From the IMG/VR virus record IMGVR_UViG_3300042450_001057, positions 1 to 20,492 of that record: a stretch of 20,492 bases of DNA; one strand, given 5' to 3'. Below are positions 4,386-20,492 of the stretch, piece by piece. A program made the translations under genes and the position numbers. Source of the stretch: a virus. A model generated the notes under the pieces. It did no database searches. It was given only the letters and a program-made list of their open reading frames with translations, and was not told the DNA's origin. Within the stretch, counting starts at the first letter, position 1, and every line of letters starts with the position of its first letter.

Positions 4386-4514
4386 CAGCTTCATCGCGTC
4401 CTTCAGGTCGCCCTTAAGCTGTTCTAACGCATCCTCTTGCCACTGTAGGCGCAGGTAAGCCTCAGTCGCAAACTTGTCTAGAGTCTCGCGTTCCCAAGCT
4501 GCAAAGTTAGGCAT
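4332..4514 (-). CDS. Small charged helical protein, last gene of leftward operon
   Basis: The 60-residue product begins MPNFAAWERE and ends PPPTK. It is strongly helical and charged in the middle (LQWQEDALEQLKGDLKDAMK), with no known motif. The frame stays open upstream to 4628, but that part lies inside the zinc-ribbon gene and looks like a shadow. An AAGG about 9 bases before the ATG at 4514 supports the short start; an ATG at 4523 is the alternative. It overlaps the zinc-ribbon gene by 8 bases and runs 54 bases into the convergent endolysin gene. The function is unknown. Confidence 0.6.
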   Translation of the reverse strand: MPNFAAWERETLDKFATEAYLRLQWQEDALEQLKGDLKDAMKLLRLQQVLGDAVSPPPTK

Positions 4515-4689
4515 ACGTTTCATCCTTGAGTTGTTGGCGCAGTTGCGCCTGTGTTTTGACTTGCGGTACCAAGGCTTCCTGCGTTGTAAACCTGTGCATA
4601 TTGGCGCACATATACCTACGGCGCACACCCTTTGGGTTTACCCGAGTCTCCAACACCTCGGTGTATGTTTCGCAGGTGGGGCATATCAT
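4507..4689 (-). CDS. Small NrdR-like zinc-ribbon protein
   Basis: The protein has 60 residues. CPTC at 3-6, VLETR at 12-16, RRRYMC at 23-28 and HRFTTQE at 32-38 reproduce the zinc-ribbon pattern of the NrdR N-terminus, with H32 likely replacing the fourth cysteine ligand (C3, C6, C28, H32). The ATP-cone domain of true NrdR is absent, so this is an isolated zinc ribbon of the type seen in phages. It may bind DNA and regulate transcription, but the target is unknown. The start overlaps the upstream gene's stop as ATGA. Confidence 0.82.
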   Translation of the reverse strand: MICPTCETYTEVLETRVNPKGVRRRYMCANMHRFTTQEALVPQVKTQAQLRQQLKDETYA

Positions 4690-4895
4690 TTATCGTGCTG
4701 CCGGATTAAATTGTTTGCTAGGTGTGAAAGATCATTTGCATGGGTGGCAAGCGTATTAATGATTCCTTTCATCTCCAGCCTGTTGCGCTCACGCTCTGCG
4801 AGGGTAGCTGCCAGCCAAGCAGTCCACGCGGTTGGCTCATGCAAAAAACCAACTTGACCGCTTAGCCATTCGCGGAATTCTTGCTTGTCGGTCAT
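4686..4895 (-). CDS. Hypothetical small phage protein
   Basis: A 69-residue protein that I do not recognise. The N-terminal part is rich in Trp and aromatics (FREWLSGQVGFLHEPTAWTAWLAA), followed by a helical segment ending NNLIRQHDK. It has no cysteines, signal peptide or membrane span. It is locked into the operon by ATGA overlaps at both ends. The coding call rests on this spacing and on its protein-like composition. Confidence 0.72.
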   Translation of the reverse strand: MTDKQEFREWLSGQVGFLHEPTAWTAWLAATLAERERNRLEMKGIINTLATHANDLSHLANNLIRQHDK

Positions 4896-5161
4896 GGTTT
4901 TTTCTCCTCAATCCTTGCTACCCGTTCCATAAAAGTATCCTCCCCCGTGTCGCCAGAGTACAGCCACTCAGCCTCCCGCGCCAGTTTTGCAACATGGTCA
5001 ACAATTGCGGCAATCTCCGCAAGTTTTACTGCGACTGCTGGCTCCCAAATGCCCACTTTCCAGCCATCGACGACTTGCCCTTGCTGCGTCAACCTTTCCC
5101 GCAGATCGTCGGCAAAATCCATCATGCGCCTGTATGCGTAATCAAATGATCCTCCGCTCAT
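4892..5161 (-). CDS. Conserved phage protein of the MSGGSFDY type
   Basis: The protein has 89 residues and begins MSGGSFDYAYRRMMDFADDL, a start I have seen on small uncharacterised proteins in many phages. The rest is helical (LAEIAAIVDHVAKLAREAEW), followed by an acidic SGDTGEDTF stretch near residues 70-78 that is also typical of this group. No enzymatic motif is visible and the role is unknown. Both ends carry ATGA overlaps with neighbouring genes, so expression is probably translationally coupled. Confidence 0.8.
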   Translation of the reverse strand: MSGGSFDYAYRRMMDFADDLRERLTQQGQVVDGWKVGIWEPAVAVKLAEIAAIVDHVAKLAREAEWLYSGDTGEDTFMERVARIEEKKP

Positions 5162-6853: not shown

Positions 6854-8160
6854 TAACATAGTTCCTCCATCGCAATGTCAGAAATGGCGCGTTTGTCGTG
6901 CAACGCCGCCCAGATGCGCTCGTCAATCGTCTTGTTGGTCAGCATCACGTAGCACCAAACGTCATGCCGCTGGCCGCTACGATGCAAACGCCCGATGGTC
7001 TGCTCAAACAGTTCGAGCGACCAGGGCAAGGACAAGAAGACGATACGGCACCCACCATGCTGGAGGTTGAGCCCGTGGCCTGCCGACTTGGGGTGGACAA
7101 GCAGTAGTTCAATCGAGCCCGCGTTCCAGCGCTCAATTGCTCGGTCATCGTCAAGGGTCTGGGCGTGGGGGTATCGCCGCTTGAGTTCAGCCAACTCCTC
7201 TTGGTAGTTGTAAACAATGAGCGTATTCGCACGTTGGTTCTCCTCCAGTAATTCATGCAGCCTGTCGAACTTGGCCGTGTCAAACCACACCGGCGTTTGC
7301 ACCGTCACCCACTTGCCGGGTATCTCTGACGGCGTCCGCACGGTGTCGTACACAAACCCGCTGGCAAGCTGCTGCAACTTGCCCGTCACCACGGCCGCGT
7401 TGACGGCCGTGATGTCCTCTAGCTTGAAGTCTTTCTTCATGGTGTCGTAAGGCTTGCGGTCGTACAGGTCACAGCGCACTTCCACCGTGTGCAGCGGCGG
7501 CAACTTGTCGCTGTACTCGCCCGCGTCCAGAACAAAAGTGGCAGGCTTAATCACGGCCATCACCTTCTCAAGACTGCCCTTGCGCGGTGCCCACTCGCCA
7601 AAGTCGGGGTTGGTCAGGATGAAGTACTGCTGCTGGAACGCGCCTTTGCTGCGGCCCAGCAGGGTCTGGTCAACGATCTTGCACTGGCCGAACACATCCT
7701 CCAGCCCGTTGCTGGTAAACGACCCCGTCAAGCCCCAACGAATGTTGATGGGCGCAAGAAATTTCAGCAGTTCCTTGAACCGTTTGCCGCTGGGGTTCTT
7801 CAAGCGTGTCAGTTCATCAAACACCACTGCGTCAAACGCGCCTGAAGGCAAGTTCTCGTAATTGGTCACTACCACTTGGGCGTCGGATTCAAACGCCGCT
7901 TGGCGCTGTTTGGCTGCTCCTACGGCTACTGCCAGCGTTACACCGGGTGCCCACTTCAGTTGCTCGACCGACCAGACGCTGGCGGCGACCCGCTTAGGGG
8001 CCAGCACAAGGAAGCGCTTTACAACGCCGTCCTTGAGCATGGCCTGCATGGCGGTCAGCGTGATGGCGGTCTTGCCTGCGCCCACAGGGGCGAGGATCAT
8101 GGCGCGGTCGCGCTCGTACAGGAAGTCAGCCGCTTGGTCTTGATAGGGCCGCAAATTCAT
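6853..8160 (-). CDS. SNF2/DEAD-type superfamily 2 DNA helicase
   Basis: This 435-residue protein is an ATP-driven DNA translocase or helicase, probably acting in phage replication or recombination. Motif I is APVGAGKT (24-31, K30). Motif II is FDELTRLKNP (114-123), with DELT in place of DEAH. Motif III is LTGSF (144-148). Late motifs are SAGHGLNLQHG and QTIGRLHRSGQ (387-397), the last typical of SNF2-like proteins. The Q-like region RPYQDQAADFL (4-14) opens the protein. Length and motif order fit small phage helicases of this family. The first 35 bases overlap the VRR-NUC gene, suggesting joint action on branched or replicating DNA. The start ATG at 8160 leaves the early motifs intact. Confidence 0.94.
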   Translation of the reverse strand: MNLRPYQDQAADFLYERDRAMILAPVGAGKTAITLTAMQAMLKDGVVKRFLVLAPKRVAASVWSVEQLKWAPGVTLAVAVGAAKQRQAAFESDAQVVVTNYENLPSGAFDAVVFDELTRLKNPSGKRFKELLKFLAPINIRWGLTGSFTSNGLEDVFGQCKIVDQTLLGRSKGAFQQQYFILTNPDFGEWAPRKGSLEKVMAVIKPATFVLDAGEYSDKLPPLHTVEVRCDLYDRKPYDTMKKDFKLEDITAVNAAVVTGKLQQLASGFVYDTVRTPSEIPGKWVTVQTPVWFDTAKFDRLHELLEENQRANTLIVYNYQEELAELKRRYPHAQTLDDDRAIERWNAGSIELLLVHPKSAGHGLNLQHGGCRIVFLSLPWSLELFEQTIGRLHRSGQRHDVWCYVMLTNKTIDERIWAALHDKRAISDIAMEELC

Positions 8161-8410
8161 CTACTTGTTCCTTTGTCCATAGACATACATACCGCTGATT
8201 GAGCCGCGCCATGTCAGCGGCGAAGACCTTCTGCAACTCTGACAGCTTGCCGCCTTTGGTCTTGAGTTCCACAAACCAAGTGCTGCCATCCGGCAGGCAG
8301 GCAATCCGGTCGGCCACGCCCCTGCGCCCAGGTGAGGTGAACTTGTAGGTCTTGCCACCTAGCCGCTCCACTGCCCAGACGAAGTGCCGTTCAACATCTT
8401 TTTCAACCAT
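8126..8410 (-). CDS. VRR-NUC domain nuclease
   Basis: The 94-residue protein consists of one VRR-NUC (PD-(D/E)XK type) domain. PGRRGVADRI (27-36) supplies D34, and FVELKTKGGKLSELQ (46-60) supplies E48, K50 and Q60, the expected metal-binding and catalytic set. Stand-alone VRR-NUC proteins of this size are common in phages and are thought to act as structure-specific nucleases such as Holliday-junction resolvases. It is the promoter-proximal gene of the leftward operon and overlaps the helicase by 35 bases. No clear ribosome site precedes its ATG, and an inverted repeat lies 11 bases upstream. Confidence 0.92.
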   Translation of the reverse strand: MVEKDVERHFVWAVERLGGKTYKFTSPGRRGVADRIACLPDGSTWFVELKTKGGKLSELQKVFAADMARLNQRYVCLWTKEQVDEFAALSRPSG

Positions 8411-13046: not shown

Positions 13047-15341
13047 ATGACATTTCTGAAATACTTGGCCGACGTTGCGCCCGAGGGCGAAGTCATCCTG
13101 TTCGTGCGGCAAAAGCCGATCCTCAAAGACGGCGAGGCGCAGCACCACGCCGATGGTGCGATCAGGTGTTCGTGGCCTGCGTCCCTGCCCAGCAAGTGGA
13201 AGGCCGATCAGGCGTGGTACTGCAACACCGGGTGTTTCATCATCGACCGATTTGACGAAGGCAAGCCCGCCGCCAAGGCCGACAATTGTGAGCGAGTCGC
13301 GTTCCTGGTGCTGGATGACGTTGGCACCAAGGCGGCGATCCCGCCCATCGCCCCGACTTGGATCATGGAGACTTCGCCGGGTAATTACCAGTACGGTTTT
13401 ACTTTCGCCCTGGACGATCAGCCGATGAAGGGCGAGTTCGCCGCCGCCATCGTCGCCATTGCCGAAGCCGGGTATACAGACAAGGGTGCCATCAACCCGG
13501 TTCGCAACTTCCGATTACCCGGCTCGGTCAACCTCAAGCCAGGGCGCGACCGTTTCGCGTCCCGCCTGGTCGAGTTCCATGCTGACCGTGAGTTCAGCCT
13601 GCCCGAGATATGCGCCGCCTTGGGCGTGGTGCCCAACCCCGCCGACACGGCCACCGTGCGCCCGATCCGGCTCACTGACAACGGCGGCGATGATGTGCTG
13701 GCCTGGGCCGCTGCCCGTGGCGACCTGCTGGAGCGGGGCAACGCCAGCGGTTGGTGGGGCATCGTTTGCCCCAACAGCGCCCAGCACTCGGACGGCAACC
13801 CGATGGGCCGCTATCACCCCGTCAACCGGGCGTATTGCTGCCTGCATGAGCATTGTTCCGAGTGGGATAGCGTCACCTACCTTGCATGGGTGGAAGAGCA
13901 TGGCGGGCCTAAACGGTCGCATGGCCTGCGCGAGGAACTGTTGGCGGCTGTCATGGAGAACACACTCGCCAAGCTGGCCCCGACGCCGCAATACCCCGAC
14001 GACGCCGCCGCCATCATCGCCGAAGTCGAACACCGCGAACTGGGCCGTCTTGAGATGTCGGGTTGGTTTGAGCGGTTCGCGTACATTCAGGACGACGATG
14101 CGTTTTTTGACTTAGTGGACCGGCGCGAGTTGATGCGAAAGACGTTCAACGCCGTGTTTCGCCACATCGGTTGCCGGTCGCGCCACGGCAAGCACCCAAA
14201 AATAGAGGCGTCGGTGTCGTTCGACGAGCATCGCCAAGACAAGGGAGCGCGGTCGTTGGTCGGCATCACCTACGCCGCCGGGGAAACCGTCCTGGTGTCG
14301 CGTGATGGCCTGGTGTACGGCAACCGTTGGCGCGATGCCCGCCCGACGCCCGTGGCCGCTGATGTGTCGGCATGGCTGCGCCATGTCGAGCGTATGGTGC
14401 CCATCGAGTATGAGCGCGAACACCTGTTGAACGCCCTGGCGCACAAGGTCCAGTACCCCGGCCACAAGATCAACCACGCCATCCTGCTGGGCGGTAACCA
14501 CGGGAGCGGCAAAGATACGCTGTTCGCCCCGTTTTTCTGGTCGATAGGCGGCAAGGGCAAGGTCAATTGTTCGCTGGTCAAGAACGAGGAATTGACATCC
14601 CAATGGGGTTACGCGCTTGAATGCGAAGTCATGGAAATCGCCGAGTTGCGCCAGGCCGAGGCCCGCGACCGCCGCGCCTTGGAGAACACGCTCAAGCCCA
14701 TCATCGCCGCCCCGCCCGAACTGTTGCCGGTGAACCGGAAAGGTTTGCACCCTTACATGGCCCTTAACCGCGTGTTCGTGGTCGCGTTTTCCAATGAGCG
14801 GGTTGCCATCAGTCTCCCCAGCGAAGACCGCCGGTGGTTTGTCCTGTGGTCGGATGAAGGCAAGATGGAGGAACCCGACGCCGTGGCCCTGTGGAACTGG
14901 TATGAACACCGTGGCGGCTTTGCTGCCGTGTCGGCTTACCTGCATACGCGGGATGTGTCCGCGTGGAACCCGAACGCCGCGCCGCCCATGACTGAGGCCA
15001 AAGCCATCATGGTCGAACACGGCATGAGCGGCGCAGAGTCGTTCCTGTTCGGCCTGATCAACGACCGCGCCCGCATGTTTGCGTCGGGTGTGATCGGTGC
15101 GCCGTTTTTCCCGGTGTGCGATGAACTGCAAATGTACGCGCCCCAAGGCATGAAGATAGTCCCGGCGGCGCTCCTACATGCGCTGAAGGAAGCCGGGTGG
15201 GTTGACATGGGCCGGCTGTCGTCGCGTGAGTTTCAGACCAAAAAGCACGTATTCTGCGCCCCTGAGAAACGCAACGGCAACAAGTCAGACTTGCGCCGTG
15301 CTATCGAAAAAAGTTCACAGGTTGAAGATAACCGCCAGTAG
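13047..15341 (+). CDS. Bifunctional primase/SF3-type helicase
   Basis: The protein has 764 residues from the ATG at 13047, preceded by AAGGAT; the frame upstream of this overlaps the PP-loop gene. The N-terminal third looks like an archaeo-eukaryotic-type primase: VAFLVLDDVGTKA (84-96) gives the LDD motif, with METSPGNYQYG (107-117) and VRNFRLPGSVNLK (152-164). A Cys/His cluster (C241, H247, C264, C265, H267, C270) may bind zinc. The C-terminal half is a DUF5906/SF3-like ATPase with Walker A GGNHGSGKDT (482-491), an acidic strand CEVMEIAELR (526-535) and VVAFSNERVAISLPSEDRRW (578-597) with a likely arginine finger. It probably unwinds and primes at the phage fork. It ends the rightward replication operon. 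Confidence 0.93.
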   Translation: MTFLKYLADVAPEGEVILFVRQKPILKDGEAQHHADGAIRCSWPASLPSKWKADQAWYCNTGCFIIDRFDEGKPAAKADNCERVAFLVLDDVGTKAAIPPIAPTWIMETSPGNYQYGFTFALDDQPMKGEFAAAIVAIAEAGYTDKGAINPVRNFRLPGSVNLKPGRDRFASRLVEFHADREFSLPEICAALGVVPNPADTATVRPIRLTDNGGDDVLAWAAARGDLLERGNASGWWGIVCPNSAQHSDGNPMGRYHPVNRAYCCLHEHCSEWDSVTYLAWVEEHGGPKRSHGLREELLAAVMENTLAKLAPTPQYPDDAAAIIAEVEHRELGRLEMSGWFERFAYIQDDDAFFDLVDRRELMRKTFNAVFRHIGCRSRHGKHPKIEASVSFDEHRQDKGARSLVGITYAAGETVLVSRDGLVYGNRWRDARPTPVAADVSAWLRHVERMVPIEYEREHLLNALAHKVQYPGHKINHAILLGGNHGSGKDTLFAPFFWSIGGKGKVNCSLVKNEELTSQWGYALECEVMEIAELRQAEARDRRALENTLKPIIAAPPELLPVNRKGLHPYMALNRVFVVAFSNERVAISLPSEDRRWFVLWSDEGKMEEPDAVALWNWYEHRGGFAAVSAYLHTRDVSAWNPNAAPPMTEAKAIMVEHGMSGAESFLFGLINDRARMFASGVIGAPFFPVCDELQMYAPQGMKIVPAALLHALKEAGWVDMGRLSSREFQTKKHVFCAPEKRNGNKSDLRRAIEKSSQVEDNRQ

Positions 15342-16882: not shown

Positions 16883-16962
16883 GGTGTCATGCTCCAAAAG
16901 TACAGGATAAAAGGTAAGCCGAAAAGGGCCGCGCCGATTAGGGCGCATAGTAGGGTTTTCAT
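16879..16962 (-). CDS. 27-aa single-span membrane microprotein
   Basis: The frame encodes 27 residues: a short MKT start, then a hydrophobic stretch at about 4-23 (LLCALIGAALFGLPFILYFW), ending SMTP. The start overlaps the DUF7227-like gene's stop as ATGA and the stop overlaps the next start as ATGA, so it fills exactly the space between two genes. The composition is that of one membrane helix. It could be a membrane-active regulator, a toxin-like or superinfection peptide; nothing more can be said. Confidence 0.6.
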   Translation of the reverse strand: MKTLLCALIGAALFGLPFILYFWSMTP

Positions 16963-17711
16963 GCTGCCACCAGCATGATGACGCGACGCGCATGGCCCGC
17001 AGCATGGTCGGCGATGACTACATCTTTAGCTACCTTAGTCGTGCCGCCGCACAGCATGCAGGTTTCGCATGTAGCCTTGCGCCCACCTTCGGCAGACGCT
17101 GGGCATGTGACTTCGCCATGCTGCTTGTCTACGCCGGTGGATACCCTGAAAACCCGCATGCCGTGCAGATTAGCTAGGGCGGCCTGATCGACGCTATCGG
17201 CCGAGGCCATTACCAGTGGCGCCCATGCAGCATGATCAAACCCTAACGTTTGCCATTGATGCGAGTAACCCGCACGGGCAAATACGTAACGGCTCACACG
17301 TTGCCATGTCGCGACGGGTGCGGCCGCCGGATCACCATAGGTGCCAATGCGGAGGGATTTACCAGCCAATGCAAGGGCTATCGTCTCAAGACTGGCCCGG
17401 ACATAGCGGCCGCGTCGATAGGCGTTATAGACCGATAGCACACTCTTTGCTACCTGTACGTAACATGGCGGCCGGCCGGTTTTCTTGGCAAGCTTAGGCC
17501 TATGCTCGCATTGTCCACATACGGATTCGTCTGCGCCGGTTTGCAGAGCTTGCACCGGATTCATGTCCGACCTAATGATGAAGCTCTGGACGATTGCGCC
17601 GGTCTTGCCGTTCTTGCTGCCGCTGTCGATCTTATTGATGATGACAACAATCGGCTTGCCATCGATTTCCGATGGACCCTCATACGCGATGTAGCCTAGA
17701 ATTTTTGCCAT
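16959..17711 (-). CDS. DUF7227-like Cys-rich conserved protein
   Basis: From the ATG at 17711, preceded by AGGC, the protein has 250 residues. Conserved features I recognise are GYIAYEGPSEIDGKPIVVI near the N-terminus, SKNGKTGAIVQSFII, VCGQCEHRP, CYVQVAKSVLSVYNAYRRGRY (read in pieces), GTYGDPAAAP and GYSHQW. A Cys cluster follows (CPAS, then CETCMLCGG). This fits a family found on phages and plasmids, which I believe is DUF7227, with no known activity. The ordered Cys pairs suggest zinc or Fe-S binding. It lies in the same operon as the methyltransferase. Confidence 0.78.
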   Translation of the reverse strand: MAKILGYIAYEGPSEIDGKPIVVIINKIDSGSKNGKTGAIVQSFIIRSDMNPVQALQTGADESVCGQCEHRPKLAKKTGRPPCYVQVAKSVLSVYNAYRRGRYVRASLETIALALAGKSLRIGTYGDPAAAPVATWQRVSRYVFARAGYSHQWQTLGFDHAAWAPLVMASADSVDQAALANLHGMRVFRVSTGVDKQHGEVTCPASAEGGRKATCETCMLCGGTTKVAKDVVIADHAAGHARRVIMLVAA

Positions 17712-17732
17712 GTTTTGCCTGTACTTTAGTAT

Positions 17733-17776
17733 GTGTCGGATTGACACCATACGCCGACTCGCTGGAATCGGCGTAT
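17733..17776. promoter_or_regulatory. Two adjacent dyads before the DUF7227-like gene
   Basis: GTGTC and GACAC (17733-17737, 17743-17747) form a small inverted repeat. Beside it, ATACGCCGA and TCGGCGTAT (17749-17757, 17768-17776) form a perfect 9-bp stem with a 10-base loop. Both lie in the 72-base gap between the 57-aa gene and the DUF7227-like gene. They could be an operator pair for an internal promoter, or hairpins in the leftward mRNA. No U-tract follows. Confidence 0.45.
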
Positions 17777-17783
17777 AGGGGAA

Positions 17784-17957
17784 TCAGGCAATTAGCGCTA
17801 AACGATTGGCGTCGACGCCTATGCGGCGCAAAAAACGCGCAAGCGATTTAACAGAAATGCCGAAAGTGATGGCCGTATCGCAACATGCATCGATAGCATT
17901 CATTTGTTGTTCTTGTCTGCGGTACATGTATGTGGCGAGAATGGTTATGTGGTACAT
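17784..17957 (-). CDS. 57-aa hypothetical protein
   Basis: The frame encodes MYHITILATYMYRRQEQQMN, then a helical part with CCDTAITFGISVKSLARFLR and an end NRLALIA. AAGG is placed 8 bases before the ATG and overlaps the stop of the upstream 81-aa gene, a usual arrangement for coupled genes. The order helix, short turn, helix (TFGISVKSLARFLRRIGV) resembles a helix-turn-helix, but this is weak. Function unknown. Confidence 0.6.
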   Translation of the reverse strand: MYHITILATYMYRRQEQQMNAIDACCDTAITFGISVKSLARFLRRIGVDANRLALIA

Positions 17958-17966
17958 GGTTTTGCC

Positions 17967-18212
17967 TTAGTTGGTTGAGGGGCGAATGATGTGCAGGTAA
18001 ACGGTGCAACCGTAATCACTGACAGCGCGCACGCGGTTAAGTGTGTCGAGTGCAGGTGTCGGCGAAACGTTGAAATACTGTTCCTCCATCGCGGTAGCGA
18101 TAGGATGCCCATACATCGACTCGAAACGCGCAACAGCGCCCGCAAGCGTGCTGTATTTGCGGCGCGTCGCTCCGTCGACGTCGCGAGTGACTACTGAATA
18201 TGTGGTTTTCAT
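17967..18212 (-). CDS. 81-aa hypothetical protein, first gene of second leftward operon
   Basis: The protein begins MKTTYSVVTRDVDGATRRKY and continues with a helical middle and a beta C-terminus (YGCTVYLHIIRPSTN). I recognise no family. It is the gene nearest to the large non-coding region, so its promoter must lie within or just before 18213-18320. A dyad at 18263-18285 lies about 50 bases upstream and may control it. Confidence 0.68.
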   Translation of the reverse strand: MKTTYSVVTRDVDGATRRKYSTLAGAVARFESMYGHPIATAMEEQYFNVSPTPALDTLNRVRAVSDYGCTVYLHIIRPSTN

Positions 18213-18262
18213 GTTTGCTTTCGTTTAGTTGATGGTTTTGCTCTGCGACTGCTCGCGCTCCG

Positions 18263-18285
18263 AGCGTAAGGTTTTTACTTACGCT
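18263..18285. promoter_or_regulatory. Perfect 8-bp dyad upstream of leftward operon
   Basis: AGCGTAAG and CTTACGCT are perfectly complementary around a 7-base centre. The position, about 50 bases before the ATG of the 81-aa gene, fits an operator for the leftward accessory operon. No promoter hexamers of good quality were found around it. Confidence 0.45.
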
Positions 18286-18299
18286 TTGCAATAGGCTAT

Positions 18300-18315
18300 T
18301 GTCACATATGCGACA
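18300..18315. repeat. Imperfect 16-bp palindrome with TGTC/GACA ends
   Basis: TGTC-A-CATATG-C-GACA is a palindrome with one mismatched pair. Its outer bases match the core of the TGTCGGC half-sites found through the region, so it may be bound by the same protein. Confidence 0.35.
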
Positions 18316-18344
18316 GTTTTGTCGGCTTTTTATGCTGTTTGGAC

Positions 18345-18386
18345 TGCCGACAATTTGACCAACATTGACGACAATTTGACCGTCAT
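18345..18386 (+). repeat. Two 21-bp direct repeats (iteron-like)
   Basis: Units at 18345-18365 and 18366-18386 share 18 of 21 bases, including the identical core GACAATTTGACC. A third, poorly conserved unit may follow. A period of 21 bases places repeats on the same DNA face, as in replication iterons. Confidence 0.55.
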
Positions 18387-18389
18387 TGA

Positions 18390-18409
18390 CCAGAATGCGC
18401 CCATTCTGG
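18390..18409. repeat. 7-bp stem hairpin
   Basis: CCAGAAT and ATTCTGG pair perfectly around GCGCCC. It lies directly after the 21-bp repeats. It could be a DNA cruciform or a protein site; there is no U-tract on either side. Confidence 0.4.
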
Positions 18410-18422
18410 ACTTATCGCGTTC

Positions 18423-18455
18423 GCTGTCGGCTGTTTTGTTGGTGCCGCTGTCGGC
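18423..18455 (+). repeat. Two GCTGTCGGC sites 24 bp apart
   Basis: GCTGTCGGC occurs at 18423-18431 and 18447-18455. It contains the same TGTCGGC half-site as the main modules further right. More single copies lie at 18320-18326 and, inverted, at 18346-18352. Confidence 0.5.
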
Positions 18456-18540
18456 GGTTGGTTTGGTCATGCGGGTTTGATGCGGTTCTCCAATGGCGAC
18501 CGCTATATGTTGGCCATGTTGGTAGTGTATTTTGGATAGT

Positions 18541-18600
18541 TGAAAAAAAATAGATATGTAATAACATATGTTATAACGTATATGGGTATTGCAATTGACT
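18541..18600. other. AT-rich stretch with 12-bp tandem repeat and 14-bp palindrome
   Basis: ATATGTAATAAC (18554-18565) is followed at once by ATATGTTATAAC (18566-18577), identical in 11 of 12 bases. ATAACATATGTTAT (18561-18574) is a perfect palindrome across the junction. The 60-base stretch is far richer in A+T than its surroundings and ends beside the first 26-bp module. This is the form of a DNA-unwinding element. Confidence 0.55.
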
Positions 18601-18602
18601 GC

Positions 18603-18809
18603 TGTCGGCATAGCCGACATAGCCGACATCTGGGGGTCGGCGCAGACAAGCCCCGCGCAGACAAGCCAACGCAGACACCTAACCCGTGTGGGCTATGCCG
18701 ACACTGCCGACATCTAACGGCAGTATGCGACTCGTGTCGGCACTGCCGACACTGCCGACATCTTGATGCAGGCATGCGACTCGTGTCGGCATAGCCGACA
18801 TAGCCGACA
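18603..18809. repeat. Array of four 26-bp three-half-site modules
   Basis: The module TGTCGGC-N3-GCCGACA-N2-GCCGACA occurs at 18603-18628, 18687-18712 (first half-site TGTGGGC, one mismatch), 18735-18760 and 18784-18809. Each consists of an inverted pair plus a third half-site repeated at 9 bases. Modules 1 and 4 use ATA/TA spacers; modules 2 and 3 use TAT or ACT, then CT. Modules 3 and 4 are also preceded by the same TGCGACTCG. The array probably binds several copies of one protein. Confidence 0.75.
18641..18679 (+). repeat. Three CGCAGACA direct repeats
   Basis: CGCAGACAAGCC occurs at 18641-18652 and 18656-18667, and a third shorter copy (CGCAGACACC) at 18670-18679, with 15- and 14-base spacing. 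They fill the space between the first and second 26-bp modules. Confidence 0.5.
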
Positions 18810-18812
18810 TGC

Positions 18813-18866
<54 letters not shown>

Positions 18867-18920
18867 GTCAACCAGGCCCCCACCCAGGGCCAGGCCGGAA
18901 GGGCCAGCGGCTACGAAGCG

Positions 18921-18949
18921 TTCGCAAACAAATTTTTTTTTAATATAAA
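18921..18949 (+). promoter_or_regulatory. Probable sigma-70-like promoter for terminase genes
   Basis: TTCGCA (18921-18926) and TATAAA (18944-18949) are spaced by 17 bases, matching 4 of 6 and 5 of 6 consensus positions. The spacer is a T-rich run. The predicted transcript would start near 18956, just before the ribosome site of the terminase small subunit. Confidence 0.5.
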
Positions 18950-18963
18950 CTCACCGCACACGC

Positions 18964-18979
18964 CTCCTCGGCGCAGGAG
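18964..18979 (+). promoter_or_regulatory. Hairpin covering the terminase ribosome-binding site
   Basis: CTCCT (18964-18968) pairs perfectly with the Shine-Dalgarno AGGAG (18975-18979) around the loop CGGCGC. The ATG is at 18985. The structure could lower translation of the terminase genes until opened. Confidence 0.45.
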
Positions 18980-18984
18980 AACAA

Positions 18985-19395
18985 ATGTTCAAGTCGATGC
19001 CTCTCACAATCCGGCATGTCAAAGCTACAGAGTCGCGCTTACAAGCGATATACGACGCGGCCAAGCTGGGCCTCAAAGGCGACACGTTGGCGCTGGCGTC
19101 AGGGATGCGGCCAGAAGAGTACCGGCACCTGTGCCAGTTTGACTCCCTAGCGGAGATGGCCGCAATCAAGGGCAAGGCCGATGGGGAGCGCGAAATGGCC
19201 GACCTCCTGCACAACGCCGCCCGAGCGGGCGATGCCAAGGCAGCGCTTGAGATACTCAAGCACCAGCACGGTTGGGTCGCCAAGCAGTCCATCTCGGTGG
19301 ACATTGACCAGCGCATATCCATCACGCAGGCGTTGGCTGACGCTGAACTGCGGGTCATAGAAGTAATTGATGCAGTCCACCAAATACAGCGCTGA
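18985..19395 (+). CDS. Terminase small subunit
   Basis: The protein has 136 residues, with a strong AGGAG before the ATG. The N-terminal part (about 14-50: ATESRLQAIYDAAKLGLKGD, then TLALASGMRPEEYRHL) is helical and resembles a DNA-binding helix-turn-helix. The middle (MADLLHNAARAGDAKAALEI, then LKHQHGWV) is an oligomerisation-type helix seen in small terminase subunits. It should recognise the packaging site and bring in the large subunit, whose gene overlaps its 3' end by 26 bases. The call depends partly on that neighbour. Confidence 0.85.
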   Translation: MFKSMPLTIRHVKATESRLQAIYDAAKLGLKGDTLALASGMRPEEYRHLCQFDSLAEMAAIKGKADGEREMADLLHNAARAGDAKAALEILKHQHGWVAKQSISVDIDQRISITQALADAELRVIEVIDAVHQIQR

Positions 19396-20492
19396 AGACG
19401 AACAAGGTTTGATGTCGCGGCTGTGGGCTCCGCGCATCAAGGACAGCCCGCTTAACTTTGTAGCGCTGGTATTCCCGTGGGGCGTCAAGGGTACGCCGCT
19501 GGAGAACTTCAAGGGGCCGCGCAAATGGCAGCGCGAGGTGCTGCAAGATATTGCCACGCACATCGAACAGAACAAGGGCCGATTAGATTTCGACGTAATG
19601 CAAGCCGCCATCTCATCCGGGCGCGGTATCGGCAAGTCGGCGCTGGTCAGTTGGATCACGATCTGGATGTTGTCAACCCGCATCGGCTCGACGACCGTCA
19701 TCTCGGCAAACTCCGAGTCGCAACTGCGCTCAATCACTTGGGCTGAGATTACCAAGTGGCTGGCGATGTCACTGAACTCGCACTGGTTCGAGGTGAGCGC
19801 CACCCGCGTCATGCCTGCCAAGTGGCTGACTGAACTGGTTGAGCGGGACTTGAAGAAGGGCACTAGGTACTGGGGCGTCGAGGGGCGGCTGTGGTCAGCG
19901 GAGAACCCGGACGCTTTTGCTGGGGTGCATAACTACGACGGGGTGCTGGTAATATTTGATGAGGCGAGCGGTATTGATGATGCGATATGGGCGGTGACGG
20001 GTGGGTTCTTTACGGAGAACACGCCGAATCGGTTTTGGTTAGCGTTTAGCAATCCGCGCCGTAACACGGGATACTTCTACGAGGCGTTCAACTCCAAGCG
20101 GGCGTTTTGGCAGACTAGGGTGGTGGATGCTCGGACGGTGGAGGGGACGGACAAGGCGGTGTATGAGCGGATCATTCAGGAGTACGGGCCGGATAGTAGC
20201 CAGGCGCACGTGGAGGTTTATGGGATGTTTCCAAGTGCGGGGGACGATCAGTTCATATCGAGTTTGATTGTGGACGAGGCGATGGCGCGGGAGAAGTACA
20301 AGGACTTGAGTGCGCCGATCATTATTGGTGTGGACCCGGCGCGGTTTGGGGCTGATGCGACGGTGATAGCGGTGAGGCAGGGGCGAGACATTGTGAACAT
20401 TACGAGGTATCGGGGGGATGACACGATGACGGTGGTGGGGTATGTGATTGACGCGATTGATGAGTACAAGCCTGCGCTGGTGGTGATTGATG
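19370..20492 (+). CDS. Terminase large subunit (3' end outside window)
   Basis: The frame starts at ATG 19370 and is open to the window end, giving 374 residues; an ATG at 19412 with AAGG upstream is the alternative. FPWGVKGTPLENFKGPRKWQ (35-54) is typical of the N-terminus. Walker A is SGRGIGKS (83-90) and Walker B is VLVIFDEA (192-199, D197, E198). The nuclease domain begins with GVDPARFGADATVI (D322), and VVID at the very end supplies a second acidic residue. It is the ATP-driven DNA packaging motor and headful or site-specific nuclease. It overlaps the small subunit gene by 26 bases. Confidence 0.95.
   Translation, partial: MQSTKYSAEDEQGLMSRLWAPRIKDSPLNFVALVFPWGVKGTPLENFKGPRKWQREVLQDIATHIEQNKGRLDFDVMQAAISSGRGIGKSALVSWITIWMLSTRIGSTTVISANSESQLRSITWAEITKWLAMSLNSHWFEVSATRVMPAKWLTELVERDLKKGTRYWGVEGRLWSAENPDAFAGVHNYDGVLVIFDEASGIDDAIWAVTGGFFTENTPNRFWLAFSNPRRNTGYFYEAFNSKRAFWQTRVVDARTVEGTDKAVYERIIQEYGPDSSQAHVEVYGMFPSAGDDQFISSLIVDEAMAREKYKDLSAPIIIGVDPARFGADATVIAVRQGRDIVNITRYRGDDTMTVVGYVIDAIDEYKPALVVID

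Follow-up and report, generated by a model that had tools for sequence, protein, structure and literature searches.

What is the function of the repeats that fill the non-coding stretch between a leftward gene (17967–18212) and the start of the small terminase gene (18985) in this virus? The window, i.e., the whole stretch of DNA analysed, is the entire IMG/VR contig of 20,492 bases and is probably a fragment. It encodes the large terminase subunit (TerL), a DNA polymerase and a lysozyme; a 60-residue protein with an NrdR-like zinc ribbon (Pfam PF22811, above cut-off) is encoded at 4507–4689 on the minus strand. A sequence-only reading of the contig had described four copies of a three-half-site module, TGTCGGC-N3-GCCGACA-N2-GCCGACA, and had proposed an origin or initiator array of unknown type, with no known initiator gene in the window. 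The features discussed below are collected in Table 1.

Table 1. Coordinates of the proposed initiator, the repeat array and the terminase genes in the window.
Feature	Coordinates	Strand	Remarks
D5-type (SF3) primase-helicase, 764 aa	13047..15341	+	Pfam DUF5906; PHROG DNA primase; proposed self-loading initiator
C-terminal domain of the proposed initiator, residues 638-764	14958..15341	+	winged helix predicted by AlphaFold
Wing hexapeptide SSREFQ, residues 725-730	15219..15236	+	co-varies with the boxes
Outer left half-sites	18320..18364		TGTCGGC at 18320 (-); boxes 18344-18352 (+) and 18356-18364 (+)
Left-arm boxes	18425..18457	-	CAGCCGACA at 18425-18433; CCGCCGACA at 18449-18457
Left tandem 9-bp box pair	18508..18525	-	TGGCCAACA and CTACCAACA, at 18508-18516 and 18517-18525; abuts the AT-rich core
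AT-rich core, proposed melting site (DUE)	18523..18582	strandless	80% AT
Right arm, module 1	18603..18628		exact match; one - box, two + boxes
Right arm, module 2	18687..18712		its - box is GCCCACA
Right arm, module 3	18735..18760		exact match
Right arm, module 4	18784..18809		exact match
Terminase small subunit (TerS)	18985..19395	+	just ahead of TerL; position marker, not binder
Terminase large subunit (TerL)	19367..20492	+	runs off the contig; phrog_2, phrog_5902; query for relatives

The repeats are real. When up to three mismatches are allowed, the module has eight matches on the two strands, whereas 0.01 are expected from shuffled sequence, and the heptamer GCCGACA has 22 occurrences in the window, where 4.1 would be expected; 15 of the 22 lie within 18320–18809. 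As had been claimed, single half-sites reach leftward to 18320. Three copies of the module are exact, but the second in Table 1 carries a single change, TGTGGGC instead of TGTCGGC. The spacers of modules 1–4 are ATA/TA, TAT/CT, ACT/CT and ATA/TA; module 2 therefore breaks the rule, also proposed earlier, that the spacers vary in pairs. The modules contain 37-nt copies whose starts are 84, 48 and 49 bp apart. That is, local duplication of a piece that holds one minus-strand and two plus-strand boxes accounts in part for the three-half-site module, and the true unit, the one kept in relatives, is a 9-bp box. The box of the window phage (TAGCCGACA) has the form [TC]N-RCCNACA, and the TGTGGGC of module 2 is itself an allowed box (GCCCACA). 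A hairpin reading of the modules was dropped, because the minus-strand box of module 2 no longer pairs with its partner and the stem-loop is thus not conserved. An Rfam search of 17900–19100 gave no match. A simple GCCTGCCT / GCTGGCCT repeat occupies 18813–18870, immediately past module 4, and similar repeats adjoin the arrays of L005, L086, L120 and L122.

Relatives were found through the large terminase (80 loci, 83–100% identical), and further ones were gathered with three primase-helicases as queries. They are phages of 36.7–39.5 kb, one of them with a P22-like portal. Their arrays sit at the same place, upstream of TerS, and are built from other heptamers: GCCAACA, GCCCACA, GTCCACA, GTCCATA and ACCCAAA are found among the phages, as is TGACTAT in L141. 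The tandem box types include, besides that of the window, TTGTCCACA and TGACCCAAA. A step of 9 dominates the region in the relatives, with 968 identical hexamer pairs as opposed to at most 269 at any other step and about 12 after shuffling; over 158 loci, the step-9 matches number 3136, and no other step exceeds 907. As 9-mers, the boxes across relatives read [TC]N-R-Y-C-N-A-H-A. Since the generic pattern used for calling boxes was derived from these same arrays, the very different boxes of L141, L149 and L296 were read by eye.

Several phages show other sequences in this region. In L149 (MW202483), a more distant podovirus, an array of GTTTACA half-sites lies at the same place (7757–8260) and is followed by a homing endonuclease; a 98-residue protein annotated as a DnaA helix-turn-helix (4661–4957) is encoded near its primase-helicase. 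L150 (OR003940) has TGACCCACTGGGTCA palindromes upstream of terS, at the place of the arrays, and its primase-polymerase is a different protein with a C-terminus that does not carry the same domain. Upstream of TerS in L296, the wing of which is ASAEFP, DnaA-box-like sequences (TTATCCACA) and a long GCTGACCG repeat replace a clear box array. HNH-like homing endonuclease genes appear to have been inserted beside the origin or behind TerS in L139, L262 and L289. In one clade (L027, L037, L045, L071 and L262), a second array, of GTTAGTG-N2-CACTAAC palindromes often lying inside AAGTTAGTG..CACTAACTTAG, is found between the origin boxes and TerS; it is probably another protein's site, possibly for packaging or regulation.

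The boxes are arranged around an AT-rich core, which is the AT-richest 60 bp of the contig (the median is 43%). The tandem pair that abuts this core on the left is absent from the earlier description; to the right of the core, plus-strand boxes begin at 18611. Tandem box pairs are almost confined to the array in the window. The same polarity is displayed by the relatives: in 94 loci, 188 minus-strand and 35 plus-strand boxes lie left of the AT-richest 80 bp, versus 70 minus-strand and 402 plus-strand boxes to the right. Of 158 loci, 86 have a minus pair, core and plus pair in this order, the gap being 101 bp at the median; the converse arrangement is seen in 42 in the same scan. The 60 bp beside the left pair have a median AT content of 0.75, compared with 0.50 in controls. 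Among nine near-complete relatives, only five have the AT-richest segment of their genome at the core. Conservation of the half-sites in relatives had been set beforehand as a test. The exact sequence varies between phages, but about 90 relatives share the layout upstream of TerS, and changes in the sequence go together with changes in the likely initiator, as follows.

Across 74 loci, box distance has a correlation (r) of 0.53 with distance in the primase-helicase, 0.43 with that in TerS and 0.37 with that in TerL. With TerS controlled for, the partial correlation of boxes and primase-helicase is 0.37 (p 0.0005); with the primase-helicase controlled for, that of boxes and TerS is -0.12 (p 0.99). 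By these distances, box sequence follows the primase-helicase (13047–15341) and not terminase. Within the primase-helicase, ACCCAAA phages from two clades are alike around residues 607–681 and 707–772 (first numbering), against the trend of the remaining protein. Box sequence is not a strict property of whole primase-helicase clades, an idea that was rejected: one clade of about 97% identity carries GCCAACA, GCCCACA, ACCCACA and ACCTACA boxes. This mixture is explained by box positions 3 and 6, which are free in that clade while the wing stays the same (ASREYQ). A correlation scan over all ORFs of the close clade gave no clear winner. The neighbouring gene that is swapped between phages (F2/F5) was rejected as the binder, since it is independent of box class. 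The slot that it occupies left of the origin, 16959–17750 and the corresponding place of relatives, holds one of two alternative Cys-rich families, which swap between close relatives: the window carries F5 (phrog_2554-like), other phages F2.

An unbiased column scan of every primase-helicase residue was run over 113 loci (effective number 20.7; residues are numbered from the ATG at 13047). For box position 8, R727 ranks first, with an NMI of 0.74, the next column being at 0.50. S725 ranks first (0.51) for whether position 6 is always C, and Q730 ranks first (0.51) for T at position 4. At the same loci, TerS and TerL columns do not exceed 0.31, and TerS was rejected as the binder on this ground and that of the partial correlations. 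Columns of the polymerase, an SSB-like and a Cas4-like protein reach 0.4–0.7, scores that are not comparable because only 6–7 effective sequences underlie them. The permutation p-values, with 90% clusters collapsed, are modest (0.01 for position 8, 0.05 for 6 and 0.085 for 4); support beyond them comes from the landing of three separate searches in the same six-residue stretch. C predominates at position 8 in 20 of the 20 wing hexapeptides with R727 and in none of the seven without it (Fisher 1e-6), and the per-locus counts are 86:2 versus 0:39. T stands at position 4 with seven of eight hexapeptides that have D or E at 730, as against one of 19 others. With K725, position 6 is fixed as C in nearly all cases; with A or S at 725, it is mostly free, as in the window.

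These associations recur on a tree of 224 branches built only from primase-helicase residues up to 700, i.e., without the co-varying residues, although independent lineages are modest in number. Position 8 and R727 change seven times each, six of these on shared branches; for position 4 and residue 730, nine branches of change coincide; position 6 and K725 have only four in common, and this is the weakest of the three residue–base links. In a set of about 110 related viruses, change in the boxes has gone with change in the three wing residues. Close pairs illustrate the point. L214 and L048 are 96.6% identical outside residues 721–731, yet both wing and boxes differ (KSRDYD with GTCCACA; ASSDYP with ACCTAAA/ACCCATA). 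L205 and L166, 93.8% identical, have KSREFD with GTCCACA and ASGDFQ with ACCCAAA, respectively. A further contrast is between L142, with SSRE and ACA boxes, and L139–L141, with SSAD or GSAD; the boxes read in L141 are TGACTAT. L167 counts against the match of wing and boxes: it has a hybrid origin, in which a single recombination point separates left TGACCCAAA boxes that fit the phage's own wing from a right arm of foreign GTCCACA boxes.

The structure predicted for the primase-helicase agrees with a DNA-reading role for this stretch. The AlphaFold model of the whole protein (50 relatives) is of moderate confidence (pLDDT 77, pTM 0.42); its closest solved fold is the C-terminal region of the NrS-1 primase (E 2e-13), followed by monkeypox E5 / vaccinia D5, AsfvPrimPol and PriRep1. 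Modelled alone (32 relatives), the C-terminal domain is a confident winged helix, with a pLDDT of about 93 in the core and the order helices, two-stranded sheet with a wing loop, helix. Residues 725–732 form the loop between the two strands, i.e., the predicted wing, and 725, 727 and 730 all lie within it. The winged helix alone gave no significant match in the PDB (best E 0.1; RFX5 was at E 0.46, likewise not significant).

We consider it very likely that the array is the bidirectional replication origin of this freshwater bacterial virus, with boxes that its own self-loading primase-helicase would bind and read. The earlier proposal of an origin or initiator array is thus well supported by box layout, conserved position and co-variation, and an initiator gene that had been missed is likely present in the window. 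We infer the following series of events from the computed layout and co-variation. The C-terminal winged helix would bind the tandem 9-bp boxes, and the two oppositely oriented box sets flanking the core would load rings on either side of it, the protein assembling there probably as two hexamers. The core would then melt, and two forks would start, primed by the protein's own primase domain. Specificity would be read by the wing loop, in which residues 727, 725 and 730 would address positions 8, 6 and 4, respectively.

How do other explanations fare? Pac sites are often near terS, and the array lies directly upstream of TerS in all relatives, as would befit a packaging site that the small terminase, the product of the next gene downstream, recognises. 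This is very unlikely: TerS distance loses its explanatory power for box sequence once the primase-helicase is controlled for, no TerS column rises above the NMI ceiling given above, and TerS types interleave with the box classes. Slightly less probable still is an operator function, in which a transcription regulator would bind the boxes to act on divergent promoters of the region. The region does divide leftward early genes from the rightward TerS, but the leftward genes next to the array are exchanged between phages regardless of box class, and neither the opposed polarity around an AT-rich core nor co-variation with a helicase domain is expected of operators.

A somewhat better, although still improbable, alternative retains the primase-helicase as the binder and makes its role at the array chiefly regulatory, in the control of copy number or of the protein's own activity, as at crr of P4, with initiation elsewhere. 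The type I repeats of P4 are indeed present in both ori and crr. Moreover, GC skew does not mark the array and lends the origin reading no support: the skew change that the sequence-only reading had suggested looking for did not appear as a consistent switch in nine near-complete relatives, nor in the pooled profile. Against a control locus stand the AT-rich core inside the array and the tandem box pairs of the same nine relatives, of which 19 are near TerL and five are scattered elsewhere, with no second cluster found in the remaining parts of these genomes. It is scarcely credible that the repeats arose as neutral duplications and that no protein binds them. Tandem duplication does account for part of the modules, and a simple repeat of GCCT adjoins them, but about 90 relatives keep the layout while the sequence shifts in step with three protein residues.

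With the origin as the preferred reading, metagenome data by themselves have sufficed to name an origin and its reader for a phage group that is abundant and uncultured, and the group is an example, worked through here, of initiator and binding sites that have changed in concert on many occasions. A bolder proposal, which we advance tentatively and rate at somewhat less than an even chance, is that of a near one-residue-one-base code, by which phages repeatedly switch origin specificity, wing residues and all boxes alike, and so form compatibility groups. If this is true, such groups would keep co-infecting relatives, or satellites, off each other's replication machinery, and L167, with its hybrid origin, would have been caught in the midst of such an exchange. 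No wing-residue code of this kind was found in the literature searched, a search outside which most subscription papers fell.

Among known systems, DnaA-type oriC has 9-mer boxes (TTATNCACA); here, in the clade to which the phage belongs, position 5 is C and position 6 is free, whereas in the DnaA box it is the other way round, and there is no DnaA among the proteins scanned. The iterons of plasmid (Rep_3/RepA) origins are of about 17–22 bp rather than 9 bp, and no protein scanned matched the Rep_3 family. The TerS recognition that characterises a terminase pac site is not reflected here, as TerS does not co-vary with the boxes. The wing of RFX1 reads the major groove, and the co-varying residues here lie in a predicted wing, a resemblance to the RFX-type winged helix (hRFX1) and nothing closer. 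A resemblance to RFX1, and to the origin-binding domain of P4, is described for the tail of AsfvPrimPol (PMC10516667). For the tails of AsfvPrimPol, the NrS-1 phage primase-polymerase and poxvirus D5/E5, the closest solved folds, origin recognition is not established in the literature searched.

The α protein of P4, of about 770 residues, combines a primase, an SF3-type helicase and a winged-helix origin-binding domain in one protein, as is predicted here. The type I repeats of ori and crr are 8-mers (TGTTCACC), partly in 9-bp steps with AT-rich DNA adjoining, and so recall the array, although their sequence differs from that of the boxes. Homology is not detectable (hhalign E 0.13, no significant sequence similarity); α is an analogue by architecture. 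P4 needs two cis sites, ori and crr, whereas one tandem-box cluster is found here, a count that comes from the nine near-complete relatives, the window being a fragment.

The closest match is with the origins of SaPIs and E. coli PICIs and their Pri-Rep / Rep initiators, the layout of which, as described (PMC6092414), is the same as here; the type of the array is therefore not without precedent. SaPI Rep proteins use the C-terminal domain for iteron binding, apparently in the form of two hexamers, and Cch2 of SCCmec binds its putative origin likewise through the C-terminal domain (PMC7581432). PriRep1 shares the D5-type fold with the primase-helicase, and a helicase initiator with a C-terminal origin-binding domain, as in PICIs and SaPIs, is indicated here by the predicted fold, the winged helix and the box co-variation. 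The PICI/SaPI origin lies immediately 3′ of the initiator gene, whereas here the gene ends at 15341 and the half-sites start at 18320, about 3 kb away beside terS, with leftward genes between. PICIs and SaPIs are satellite islands using a helper phage, whereas the present ones are full phages that encode terminase and DNA polymerase themselves. Also different from the islands are the 9-bp boxes and a specificity traced to three residues of the predicted wing.
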